From: Desulfobacterales bacterium
GTDB lineage: Bacteria > Desulfobacterota > Desulfobacteria > Desulfobacterales > JAFDDL01
Direction: 5' to 3'
Assembly (NCBI GenBank): GCA_034003325.1
Contig: JAVEYW010000003.1
Span: 1-64,000, forward strand
Length of the DNA stretch: 64,000 bases
The translations under genes were made by a program, and so were the position numbers. The notes below the pieces were generated by a model. It saw nothing but the letters and a program-made list of their open reading frames with translations. It was not told the DNA's origin and did not search any database. Below, piece by piece: positions 38,261 through 61,690 of this stretch (within the stretch, counting starts at the first letter, position 1; every line of letters begins with the position of its first letter).

Positions 38261-40003
38261 ATGAACAATATCTTAATATTAAATGATGCAATCAAAGGTT
38301 TTACATTAGATCAGGACAAGATCATAACCCCCGAAGAAACCGTCCGAAGGCTCAAAACCAAATTATCGCAACTAAATCTCGATATTCTCGACCGCGCTGA
38401 ACGAATCGACAACGGGCGCTTGGACATTCCGGTCTATTTCAGTGTATGCGGGAAAGACGCGCTTTCCATTATCGGAACCAAAAAGCAGATGGGAAAAGGC
38501 GCAACCCTGCAGCAAGCAGAAGCCAGTGCGGTAATGGAGCTGGCCGAGCGCTTCAGCTTTTTCAGTTTTTGCAAGCAGCCAAATAATTTCGTTACAGCAT
38601 GCTATAAAGCTATCAGGGACAAGGCCATTTCTTTTGACCTTATCGCCCGATCCGTTCATGACGACACCGGCGAGCTTGACATCACCCGTGGTTTTTTTGA
38701 AACCCTGCCCCTTCAATGGACCCGGGCATATAATTTAACCAAACAAGAAGAAGTGCTTATCCCTTTTACCTGGTTTTATGCCATCAACGAATTCAATGGC
38801 CCGTCCGCCGGTAATTGCCGGGAAGAAGCATTGATGCAGGGGATATCTGAAGTTATGGAGCGCCATGTCTCATCCCTTATCAGTCAAAACCGGCTGAGGG
38901 TGCCATCCATTCGGCCCGAATCGGTTACCGATCCGATCGTGCTTGACATGTTCCGTAAATATCGGCAAGCCGGAATTCAACTCTTTCTATCGGATTTTTC
39001 GCTCGATACCGGCATCCCTACGGTGGGGGTTCTGGCGTATGATCCGGCCACCTTTCCAAAATCAAGTGAAATCGTCTGGACTGCCGGAACAACCCCTGAT
39101 CCACAAAAAGCGCTTAGCCGGGCATTGACGGAGGTCGCCCAGTTGGCCGGGGACTTTAATACCGCCGCCAATTACGTGGCTTCGGGCTTGCCCAAGTTTT
39201 CAACCCTTGCGGAAGCCGATTATGTCATGAATCCCGGAAAAGAAGTCGATATTCAAGACCTTCCCGATATCTCAAACCCCAATATTCGGATAGAGATTGA
39301 AAACTGCATTGCGGCCCTGGCCGATAACGGCATGGAGATTATCGTGATAGATACCATGCATTCGGAATTGAAGGTGCCGGCCTTTTACACCATTATTCCC
39401 GGCGCTCATTTCAGGGAACGGGCACGGGGTACCAGTGTCGGCATGTTTTGTGCTAAAATTGTCCATGAAAACGCTCAGCCGGCGCTCGCATTAAAAACGC
39501 TCAGGGAAATGGATAACAAATTACCGGGAAAATATTTCATTCAATTTTATATGGGAAGTTGCCTGCTGAACCTGGGTGATCCGCGGGCCGCCCTGCCCTA
39601 TTTTAAAAAAGCGCTTTCGCTCCAACCGAACGAGCAGGATATCCCCAGTATATATTCTTATATTGGTGTTTGTTTGAAAGAAATGGGCCTGTACCGGGAA
39701 GCCATCAGCGTGCTTCAACAGGGAGAAACTTTTGATCAGGAACGTACCGACATATATAATCTCATGGGTTTTTGTCATTTCATGCTCAAAGAACATGAGG
39801 CGGCTATTTTAAATTTCAAGAAGGTGCTCGCGCTGAACCCCTCCTCGGCCATTGATTACGCCAACATTGCCTCAAATTACCGGGATATGGGCCATACCGA
39901 CAATGCCATCCAGTATTATGAACTTGCGCTGGAATTGGATGCGGGAATTGATTTCGCCCGCATCAATCTGGAAAAATTGAGGGGCCAAAAGACATTCGTT
40001 TGA
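38261..40003 (+). CDS. YcaO-domain protein with C-terminal TPR repeats
   Basis: 580 residues. Residues 1 to about 395 are a YcaO ATP-grasp-like domain: the glutamate clusters that bind Mg-ATP are visible in QQAEASAVMELAERFSFF, REEALMQGISEVMERH and SRALTEVAQLAGDFNT. Residues about 405 to 570 are TPR repeats (YFIQFYMGSCLLNLGDPRAALPYFKKALSL; AILNFKKVLALNPSSAIDYANIA). YcaO enzymes activate amide bonds, either making azolines or thioamides in peptides or modifying proteins such as ribosomal S12. No dehydrogenase, E1-like partner or TfuA gene is adjacent, so a protein-modifying role is as likely as a peptide product. Confidence 0.88.
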   Translation: MNNILILNDAIKGFTLDQDKIITPEETVRRLKTKLSQLNLDILDRAERIDNGRLDIPVYFSVCGKDALSIIGTKKQMGKGATLQQAEASAVMELAERFSFFSFCKQPNNFVTACYKAIRDKAISFDLIARSVHDDTGELDITRGFFETLPLQWTRAYNLTKQEEVLIPFTWFYAINEFNGPSAGNCREEALMQGISEVMERHVSSLISQNRLRVPSIRPESVTDPIVLDMFRKYRQAGIQLFLSDFSLDTGIPTVGVLAYDPATFPKSSEIVWTAGTTPDPQKALSRALTEVAQLAGDFNTAANYVASGLPKFSTLAEADYVMNPGKEVDIQDLPDISNPNIRIEIENCIAALADNGMEIIVIDTMHSELKVPAFYTIIPGAHFRERARGTSVGMFCAKIVHENAQPALALKTLREMDNKLPGKYFIQFYMGSCLLNLGDPRAALPYFKKALSLQPNEQDIPSIYSYIGVCLKEMGLYREAISVLQQGETFDQERTDIYNLMGFCHFMLKEHEAAILNFKKVLALNPSSAIDYANIASNYRDMGHTDNAIQYYELALELDAGIDFARINLEKLRGQKTFV

Positions 40004-57857: not shown

Positions 57858-59843
57858 CTAGTAACCTAATTTCATACCAACATAGGCAGAACGGCCCGGA
57901 GTAGCATAGCTCCAGACTTCCTCATAAAACTCGTCAAACAGATTGTCAACACGACCATATACTTTAACATGCTTATTAATATCATATTGCGCTGAAAGAT
58001 TGACCAGCGAGTAGGAATCCAGTTGAGTGACAGGGCTGCCGGTGATATCGTTTCCGAAAATTTCATCTCGATCATCCACCCAATGAATATCTAGATTCGT
58101 TTTAACTTTTTCCATAAAACTGTATCCCAAATTAAGGGAAATTTTATTTAACGGCCGATAAGGGCGTCTTGCCCCGTCCGGATCTTCCGTATCCGTATAA
58201 GTATAATTCAACAAGATACTAAACGTCGACATCGGCGCCCATTGAATGAAAGATTCAATGCCTTTTGTTTTGGTTTTTCCTTTGAGGTTTATATAGGTTG
58301 ATTGATAGGTAACCGAATCAAAATAATATTCAATTCGATCTTCAAAAACCATATTAAAATACGAGACTCCGAATTTGAGCTTATCATCCATCAATTGCTG
58401 CTCAAAACCAACGTCCCAACCGTCACTCTCTTCCGGGTCTAAATTTTCATTACCTCCTGCAAATGAATAAGCTGGAATTGGGTCGGCAAAGAGTTCGAAA
58501 AGGGAAGGTGCACGAAATCCGGTGCCATAGCTGGCTTTGATCGTTGTCTCTGTTTTTTGAATGGTATAAGCAGGCGCCATTCGATAGGTCATTTCAGAGC
58601 CAAACTGATCATGATCATCGACCCTGACACCGGCAACAATATCAAGACCGTCCATAAGCAACAGTTGATCTTGAGCCCAATAAGATTTTGTAATCGCATC
58701 TTTTTCATCTATTTCTGCCGTGTCATAGTATTCCTGGAAATAAGCACCGCCAAAACTGAGAAGATGGGTATCAAAACTCAACCCGCCCTGCCATCCAATT
58801 TCATTGGACCGACCGTCTGAAACGGTCAGGTTATTTTCATTGTCATATATATTTTTTTCGTTTTTAGCTGTTTGATAATAGAACGAAGAGCTAACAAACC
58901 GATCAAAAAAATGGTTATTTATTTCTATCCTTCCCGAATATTCATCTGTGTCCTGTCTGGCAATTTTAGCGCCGTTAGGATCTGGCAACACGGGCTCCCA
59001 CCAATTTACGGGAAAAATGAATCGATCTCCGGTATATCCTCCCAGTCCATCATAATCATCATTATCCGCCTGAGATTCACCATATCGCAACACCGCTGTA
59101 ATATTGAAGGTTGAATTAAATTCATAGCCGAATTTACCGGAAAGTGTTGTGTTGTCCCACCCATCATCTTCTGCTGTGTTTCCTGCGTGTGGAATGCCGT
59201 CATTATCATCATTTGCGATTGAAAAACCGTCTGTTTCTATTCGCGCGCCATTCATGGAAAAGTTGAACTTGTCGATTTCTCCTGAAGTTCCGCCGTATGC
59301 CTTCCATGTATTATACGATCCGGCCTCAAACCCTGCATAAACCGACGGTTTCCCATGGCCTTTTTTGGTTATTATATTAACGACCCCTGCCGTTGCATTG
59401 GTCCCATAAAGAGCACTCAAAGGGCCTCGAACAATTTCGATTCGCTCAATATTATCTGTGGTTAAATTGGCGATATCGGCACTTCGATTGGGTGATGAAG
59501 CGTCATTTACCATAACACCATCGATTAAAATAAGGGTATTTTTTGCCTCCGCTCCCCTTAAGAACACGTATGTCTTGGTTCCGGGGCCACCGTTAGAAGC
59601 CACATCAAGCCCGGGAACCCCCTTAAGGATTTCCTCTACCGATTCAGCCTTCTTGGCTTCGATATCCTTTTCCGTGATGGCCGTAACACTACTGCCACCA
59701 ATCTTATCGACATTCGTTTCACCGCGTGTCGCTGTTACAACGACCCTTTCCATTTCATAGGCTGTGTCAGAGGCAAATAAGGGGCCTTGGGTGCCCATCA
59801 TTGCCAATACAAAGACAAATCCGTATACTACTTTTTTATTCAT
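57858..59843 (-). CDS. btuB: TonB-dependent cobalamin receptor (BtuB-like)
   Basis: 661 residues: signal peptide (VVYGFVFVLAMMGTQGPLFA), a TonB box region (MERVVVTATRGE), a plug domain (VEEILKGVPGLDVASNGGPGTKTYVFLRGAEAKNTLILIDGVMVND, RIEIVRGPLSALYGTNATAGVVNI) and a 22-strand barrel ending YVGMKLGY with aromatic terminal residue. It is preceded by a cobalamin riboswitch with terminator, so the substrate is very probably a corrinoid. AGGAGATAATGG precedes the ATG. Aspartate-rich loops (DDNDGIP, DNDDYDG) suggest calcium-assisted binding as in BtuB. Confidence 0.92.
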   Translation of the reverse strand: MNKKVVYGFVFVLAMMGTQGPLFASDTAYEMERVVVTATRGETNVDKIGGSSVTAITEKDIEAKKAESVEEILKGVPGLDVASNGGPGTKTYVFLRGAEAKNTLILIDGVMVNDASSPNRSADIANLTTDNIERIEIVRGPLSALYGTNATAGVVNIITKKGHGKPSVYAGFEAGSYNTWKAYGGTSGEIDKFNFSMNGARIETDGFSIANDDNDGIPHAGNTAEDDGWDNTTLSGKFGYEFNSTFNITAVLRYGESQADNDDYDGLGGYTGDRFIFPVNWWEPVLPDPNGAKIARQDTDEYSGRIEINNHFFDRFVSSSFYYQTAKNEKNIYDNENNLTVSDGRSNEIGWQGGLSFDTHLLSFGGAYFQEYYDTAEIDEKDAITKSYWAQDQLLLMDGLDIVAGVRVDDHDQFGSEMTYRMAPAYTIQKTETTIKASYGTGFRAPSLFELFADPIPAYSFAGGNENLDPEESDGWDVGFEQQLMDDKLKFGVSYFNMVFEDRIEYYFDSVTYQSTYINLKGKTKTKGIESFIQWAPMSTFSILLNYTYTDTEDPDGARRPYRPLNKISLNLGYSFMEKVKTNLDIHWVDDRDEIFGNDITGSPVTQLDSYSLVNLSAQYDINKHVKVYGRVDNLFDEFYEEVWSYATPGRSAYVGMKLGY

Positions 59844-60927: not shown

Positions 60928-61071
60928 ATGGATAATATGGAATTTTCAGATTCGAATGAACTTCGGTGCGAGGAACACTGCGTCTATGAATGGGTCGATT
61001 GCGTGGAAGAGTTGCAAGGAGCCGCCATTTGCAAGACCCGGGAGCGCAATTGCTTCGGTGAGTGCGCGTGA
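60928..61071 (+). CDS. 47-residue protein with mirror-symmetric cysteines
   Basis: ATG after AAAGGGGGTGGAT. Six cysteines at 14, 18, 25, 35, 42 and 46 follow CX3C-X6-C-X9-C-X6-CX3C, which reads the same in both directions. Between them the sequence is helical and acidic (CEEHCVYEWVDCVEELQG, then ICKTRERNCFGECA). The pattern fits a helical hairpin in which C14/C46, C18/C42 and C25/C35 face each other, holding disulfides or a metal. No family recognised. It ends 36 bases before the next small cysteine gene, probably in one transcript with it. Confidence 0.65.
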   Translation: MDNMEFSDSNELRCEEHCVYEWVDCVEELQGAAICKTRERNCFGECA

Positions 61072-61107: not shown

Positions 61108-61284
61108 ATGAAAAATCAAGTACCCACATCAGCTCGAAATTGTTGCACTTTAGAAAACCAGCGACTGGTGGAAGCAATCAGAGCGTGCGACTATTGTTCA
61201 ACGAGTTTTAAGCGGCACTTGGCATGCTATCGTCGTGCTGCAAAGGAAAGCGGGCAGCGCTCACATAGTTGCATGATCTTGTAG
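61108..61284 (+). CDS. 58-residue six-cysteine basic protein
   Basis: ATG after ACAGGAGGGCTAACA, an excellent ribosome site. Cysteines at 12, 13, 27, 30, 40 and 55: NCCTLENQRL, CDYCSTSFKRHLAC and SHSC. C27-X2-C30 with H37 and C40 resembles a small zinc-ribbon or zinc-knuckle arrangement. Basic overall. Family not recognised. It is the second of two small cysteine-rich genes after the flavin-barrel gene; a terminator lies 68 bases after its stop. Confidence 0.65.
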   Translation: MKNQVPTSARNCCTLENQRLVEAIRACDYCSTSFKRHLACYRRAAKESGQRSHSCMIL

Positions 61285-61351: not shown

Positions 61352-61387
61352 AACAAAGCCCGGAATGAATCGCCGGGCTTTGTTTTT
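61352..61387 (+). terminator. Rho-independent terminator after the small cysteine genes
   Basis: AACAAAGCCCGG pairs with CCGGGCTTTGTT and is followed by TTTTC. Confidence 0.85.
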
Positions 61388-61445: not shown

Positions 61446-61607
61446 TCAACAACAACAGGAACTGACATAACACCCGCAAGGATCAACAGCGCACCCACAA
61501 GCATCAACTACATAACAACAGCGGTTTTCAGATTCCGATTTCTTCTCTTTTTTATCGACATCCTCTTCTTTTTTATCATATTTTTTAATATTTTCATCTG
61601 AATCCAT
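61446..61607 (-). CDS. 53-residue peptide: charged N-terminus and Cys/Gly-rich C-terminal core
   Basis: Starts at ATG 61607 after an ideal Shine-Dalgarno (AAAGGAGGTGATC). Residues 1-29 are highly charged (MDSDENIKKYDKKEEDVDKK, then EKKSESENR). Residues 30-53 hold ten cysteines with repeating units of Cys-Gly-Cys and Asp: CCYVVDACGC, AVDPCGC, YVSSCCC, then stop. The layout of leader plus small-residue/cysteine core is like a ribosomally made, modified peptide precursor, or a metal-binding peptide. The ribosome site lies in the 3' arm of a small hairpin (CTCCT-TAAA-AGGAG). It is 84 bases after the membrane glycosyltransferase gene on the same strand. I do not recognise a named family. Confidence 0.7.
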   Translation of the reverse strand: MDSDENIKKYDKKEEDVDKKEKKSESENRCCYVVDACGCAVDPCGCYVSSCCC

Positions 61608-61690
61608 TAAGATCACCTCCTTTTAAGGAGTCACAACTATTTTGGAATTCTTAGTGATTTGATCCCCCCATATTTGGAGGTTCAGGCCCT

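Follow-up and report, generated by a model that had tools for sequence, protein, structure and literature searches.

A small poly-cysteine peptide family of Desulfobacterales and its possible role as an unmodified thiolate peptide

Close to the end of the window, the 64,000-nucleotide stretch of Desulfobacterales DNA analyzed here, lies an open reading frame of 53 codons with an extreme cysteine content, raising the questions of whether it is a genuine gene and, if so, what its product might do. An earlier note, made from the letters alone, had read it either as the precursor of a modified peptide or as a redox or metal peptide. The frame is indeed found at positions 61446-61607, on the minus strand (the note had given no strand), ends in TGA and encodes MDSDENIKKYDKKEEDVDKKEKKSESENRCCYVVDACGCAVDPCGCYVSSCCC. 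The translation also bears out the proposed layout, with a charged 29-residue leader followed by a 24-residue core (residues 30-53) spaced as CC-x5-CGC-x4-CGC, except that the core holds nine cysteines on recounting, not ten. It is the single 24-residue stretch in the window to reach at least nine cysteines, and none arose in ten first-order Markov randomizations of the window. The window's genome carries one copy of the gene.

That this frame is more than a chance occurrence was decisively settled by its homologs, which at E <= 3e-7 are present in 26 of 389 genomes sampled from the same order. These came from a 13-sequence profile run against the 389 genomes and against 395 genomes of the phylum; some carriers are multi-copy, with G585 holding the most copies. 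An initial search of 96 same-order genomes had returned relatives with E values from 3e-11 to 6e-4, and a scan of GTDB contigs yielded 11 loci labeled Desulfobacteraceae, Deltaproteobacteria, Desulfosarcina or Olavius algarvensis Delta 4 symbiont. In the 395-genome phylum sample, no true relative was found in other orders; apart from the window's own genome, the sole match was in G282, and it was rejected on inspecting its translation. The search across Desulfobacterota that had been proposed for this peptide recovered a family, which in our sample is confined to its own order. G563, G657, G702, G703 and G705 are near-complete genomes.

Selection on the protein sequence is strong and purifying. 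Across three close pairs of relatives, dN/dS for the whole peptide was 0.11, 0.08 and 0.07, far below the value near one that the earlier note had named as the mark of an unconserved cysteine core, indicating that the peptide functions as a protein. Its two parts evolve at different rates, with values of 0-0.08 in the slow core (one pair being saturated at silent core sites) and about 0.2 in the fast leader. Every cysteine is kept in all three pairs, two of which show silent TGT/TGC swaps. On the basis of reading frame, homologs and dN/dS, we regard the poly-cysteine peptides as a real, hitherto undescribed Desulfobacterales gene family.

Throughout the family, the core is composed of two to five seven-residue units C-G-C-Y-V-D-P (VDPCGC(Y)-type). 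V-D-x-C-G-C and V-D-P-C-x-C are near-invariant while the repeat number varies, and the non-cysteine core residues V, D, P and G are about as conserved as cysteine itself. The core is usually entered through CC and almost always closes in a cysteine run at the C-terminal extremity, giving 7-12 thiols (mostly 8-12 cysteines), in odd as well as even numbers. The N-terminal tail, in turn, is charged, poor in hydrophobic residues, weakly conserved and difficult to align. The main form can be distinguished from a CGCFQVVDACGCRVVDPCGCYVSQCCC form (G566, G669 and G696; similar in G657, G703 and G705). Two outgroups, B (L039, L038, L115) and C (L107, L114, L117, L118), follow the same design of charged tail and cysteine core with different cores, namely CCYHVVDGCGCVVGTYCC.GPDMSNC in B and NLCCCYxxxxDGxYxDPCxxPxxxCC in C. 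Relatives stop at TGA, TAA or TAG, which rules out selenocysteine at the TGA codon.

The profile libraries we searched miss the family entirely, probably owing to its shortness. Thirteen members scanned against Pfam gave no family match and no metallothionein match at E <= 1, and all 13 matched zero families among the curated NCBIfam models, which include SCIFF and similar cysteine-rich peptides. PHROGs returned no match to the peptide and IMG/VR no confirmed viral relative, on which grounds a viral origin as a phage-encoded small protein was rejected. The PDB held no credible solved-structure relative, and the AlphaFold model (pLDDT 54, pTM 0.23) was not interpretable. Neither the motif VDPCGC nor a description of the peptide was found in the papers searched.

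We then considered the signals flanking the gene. Its Shine-Dalgarno sequence, described before as ideal, turned out to be a 12-nt complement to the 16S 3' end, AAGGAGGTGATC (61611-61622, minus strand), followed by the spacer TTA and the ATG, and is the sole copy on both strands of the 64 kb. Matches of at least 9 nt precede 18 of 41 relatives versus 1 of 379 background genes, the latter being neighbor genes of the family loci, scored at the best of all their starts. The same site had been suggested to act as a folding switch via CTCCT-TAAA-AGGAG (61617-61630, minus strand). This sequence is present, but the mini-hairpin is neither unusual nor conserved: folding of the region was unremarkable against shuffles (z -0.71; 43 of 200 at least as stable), the 5' arm is missing from the relatives inspected, and the switch was rejected on both counts. 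Beyond the stop codon, a GC-rich, terminator-like hairpin, AACAAAGCCCGG...CCGGGCTTTGTT, with a T-run on the plus side (61352-61386), separates two convergent genes, and most family members are followed by a stable 3' hairpin (median z of 3' folding -3.2). From the long Shine-Dalgarno sequence and the 3' hairpin, we infer a small gene geared to high levels of translation and, likewise, of expression. E. coli ribosomes may differ from those of other bacteria in their use of extended Shine-Dalgarno sequences (PMC13009471).

Numerous cysteine codons followed by a hairpin could alternatively mark a cysteine-responsive attenuator, in which translation of these codons would control a terminator and the gene behind it; a precedent, the mycobacterial polycysteine sORFs (Canestrari 2020), is cited in PMC9094748. 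However, 17 of the 41 downstream genes nearest to a peptide gene are convergent with it, an arrangement that speaks against attenuation as a general role. Moreover, downstream genes are unrelated between genomes, with no co-directional, regulated cysteine or sulfur gene among them, and conserving V, D, P and G about as well as cysteine would be needless for a leader that merely counts codons. Lacking a suitable downstream gene, the attenuator was rejected and seems to us very improbable.

Comparison of about 40 gene neighborhoods, also proposed at the outset, revealed no conserved enzyme neighbor. Most copies are solitary units, and no gene family was common to the loci beyond close kin, apart from broad ones such as two-component regulators. 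The nearest neighbors are unrelated (Hsp90, NlpC/P60, YdjM, MFS, GNAT, Zn-dehydrogenase, heavy-metal P-type ATPase, thioredoxin, radical SAM and others), and those related to metals or thiols are few and not conserved. An HMA P-type ATPase, recognized by Pfam, is convergent with the peptide in G692, as is a related ORF of the same blast cluster in G499, the two genomes representing two genera of one family (ATPase-type ORFs at L086 2055-4442 and L103 6178-8730). In G625 and G661, a peptide variant is followed 80 bp further on by a thioredoxin-2-like gene (L109 121-576, L110 8466-8921); Pfam supports the call for L110, which the L109 ORF resembles in length and position. An ORF of 126-141 aa follows the peptide in G669, G566 and G702 (L083 9286-9666, L084 9346-9771, L094 8504-8884); it had no Pfam match where tested and may be a small conserved neighbor within one family.

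These neighborhoods bear directly on the view that the peptide is a RiPP precursor, given thioether, thiazole or similar modifications by an enzyme with its gene at another site in the genome, as its leader-core layout and its repeat-unit core of variable length would suggest. The maturase classes searched were YcaO, MNIO and SPASM radical SAM. The YcaO gene of the window (38489-39406) is about 22 kb away and, as stated before, unlinked; YcaO is near-ubiquitous (86 of 96 same-order genomes) yet absent from the carrier G094 (95% complete), and the link was rejected accordingly. An MNIO/bufferin-type enzyme was likewise rejected, with MNIO present in none of 12 carriers tested. Several SPASM radical-SAM proteins occur in each of 12 carriers tested, which could favor a RiPP precursor, but their presence is uninformative, since at least some of these proteins presumably represent the heme-pathway pair, and SPASM was dropped as a pointer to the maturase. 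Furthermore, the leader, which evolves faster than the core and aligns poorly, is hydrophilic and appears unstructured in the low-confidence model. Without a shared enzyme neighbor, with YcaO unassociated and MNIO absent, the modified-peptide branch of the earlier note is weakened and strikes us as unlikely, whereas its metal/redox branch survives on composition and context.

Part of this context is a second small cysteine protein, encoded just beyond the hairpin at 61108-61284 on the plus strand. This 58-aa partner (CCxxExxRLVxxLxxCDxCSTS...CYRxxAKESGxRSxxC) has no Pfam or NCBIfam match and forms a conserved family present in 10 of 96 same-order genomes. Among genomes carrying the peptide, 12 of 26 also encode the partner, compared with 6 of 90 genomes without the peptide (Fisher p about 1e-5); leaving out the window's genome, the figures are 11 of 25 versus 6 of 90 (p about 3e-5). 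Both tests ignore kinship, and the two groups were drawn partly from different samples. In five genomes the two genes are close together: in G000, G585 and G702 no more than about 1.2 kb separates the partner from a group A poly-cysteine peptide, and in G565 and G678 the partner immediately follows one of group C. An adjacency test that set aside the window's genome and two genomes found through adjacency still yielded 2 of 13 genomes (G585 and G702) against 0.011 expected (p about 6e-5).

A third small cysteine protein of 47 aa (CX3C...ICKTRERNCFxxC) is encoded upstream of the partner at 60928-61071, again on the plus strand. It is conserved in G042 and G087, occurs in G585 and G565 as well, and is close to the partner three times: it lies upstream of it in the window and in G585, and the G565 locus has all three genes. 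Orientation varies between loci, and the association is therefore one of repeated proximity and not of a single frozen operon. The trio of the window sits between a TonB-dependent receptor gene and CobQ/CobU/CobS genes (window 57858-59843; contig beyond 64000, L032), and that of G565 adjoins a CobA/BtuR corrinoid adenosyltransferase gene (L118 2636-3286); no corrinoid gene was recognized at the other loci with adjacent partner and peptide.

Partner and trio lift the peptide above a mere orphan. One could go further and propose that the three tiny, independently conserved proteins (53-aa poly-CGC, 58-aa CC/CDxC, 47-aa CX3C) constitute a Desulfobacterales thiolate system for metal or sulfane sulfur, with a chemistry unlike that of known metallothioneins and the partner loading or unloading the repeat core, but we consider this proposal speculative and rather unlikely to hold in full.

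What, then, would the peptide do? It might have a structural or signaling role without any metal, as a component of the surface, of aggregates or of inclusions, or as an anti-competitor peptide. An orphan gene with patchy distribution, present more than once in some genomes and several times in G585, would suit such a role; the peptide, however, lacks a secretion signal, and neither an exporter nor an immunity gene is conserved near its copies, making this reading quite improbable. A disulfide-rich or redox-relay peptide, whose cysteine pairs would alternate between thiol and disulfide states or bear persulfide while the core forms no metal site, agrees with the CC, CGC and CCC clusters, with the thioredoxin gene behind the variant in G661 (and the similar ORF in G625) and with a host group of sulfidic lifestyle. 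Against it stand the odd and variable cysteine number, unsuited to a fixed set of disulfides, the missing signal peptide for an oxidizing compartment and the lack of a conserved redox neighbor at the loci examined; we deem it unlikely, though it ranks second, ahead of the RiPP precursor with an unlinked enzyme.

The contrast between slow core and fast leader, the strong translation signal and the failure to find a maturase or an exporter are together best fitted by an unmodified intracellular thiolate peptide. Our leading, still tentative explanation is thus a cytosolic, metallothionein-like peptide serving as a buffer for soft metal ions or sulfane sulfur, a reading we rate somewhat short of an even chance. 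A stand-alone gene would give rise to a ribosomally made, highly translated peptide, probably cytosolic since it has no signal-like hydrophobic segment, whose disordered, charged N-terminal tail would keep the compact core soluble. In the repeated CGC-Y-V-D-P units, 7-12 thiols, most likely unmodified, would act together as a thiolate cluster in sulfide-producing cells, possibly in a loose functional group with the 58-aa and 47-aa proteins. Ligation of metal or sulfur and cooperation with the partner are suggested by composition and gene context, and buffering appears to be the most economical function for so many thiols packed together in a sulfidogenic bacterium. In the habitats of sulfate reducers, sulfide removes metals from solution, and to our knowledge little is known of how these cells buffer reactive sulfur and soft metals internally. 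A poly-thiol peptide that is conserved, apparently translated at a high level and joined by a conserved companion offers a concrete genetic handle on the question.

By kind, the product is a small cysteine-rich peptide, and three known systems invite comparison. With the mycobacterial polycysteine regulatory sORFs, leaderless according to the title of Canestrari 2020 as cited in PMC9094748, it shares a short ORF rich in cysteine codons and followed by a hairpin, but differs in its strong Shine-Dalgarno sequence, its conserved non-cysteine residues and the lack of a controlled cysteine gene downstream. RiPP precursors of the YcaO, MNIO/bufferin and SPASM radical-SAM classes likewise combine a leader with a repetitive cysteine core; here, no enzyme is linked, MNIO is absent, YcaO is unassociated and the leader is less conserved than the core. 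The bacterial metallothioneins (SmtA/BmtA, Pfam Metallothio_Pro) have in common with it a small size, 9-12 cysteines in about 50 aa, CxC and CC motifs and a probably cytosolic location. The peptide has no match to a PF02069-like profile. Its Tyr and Val are conserved, which is unusual in a metallothionein, and it is by these residues, the CGC-YVDP repeat, the CC/CCC runs and the long charged leader that the poly-cysteine peptide stands apart.
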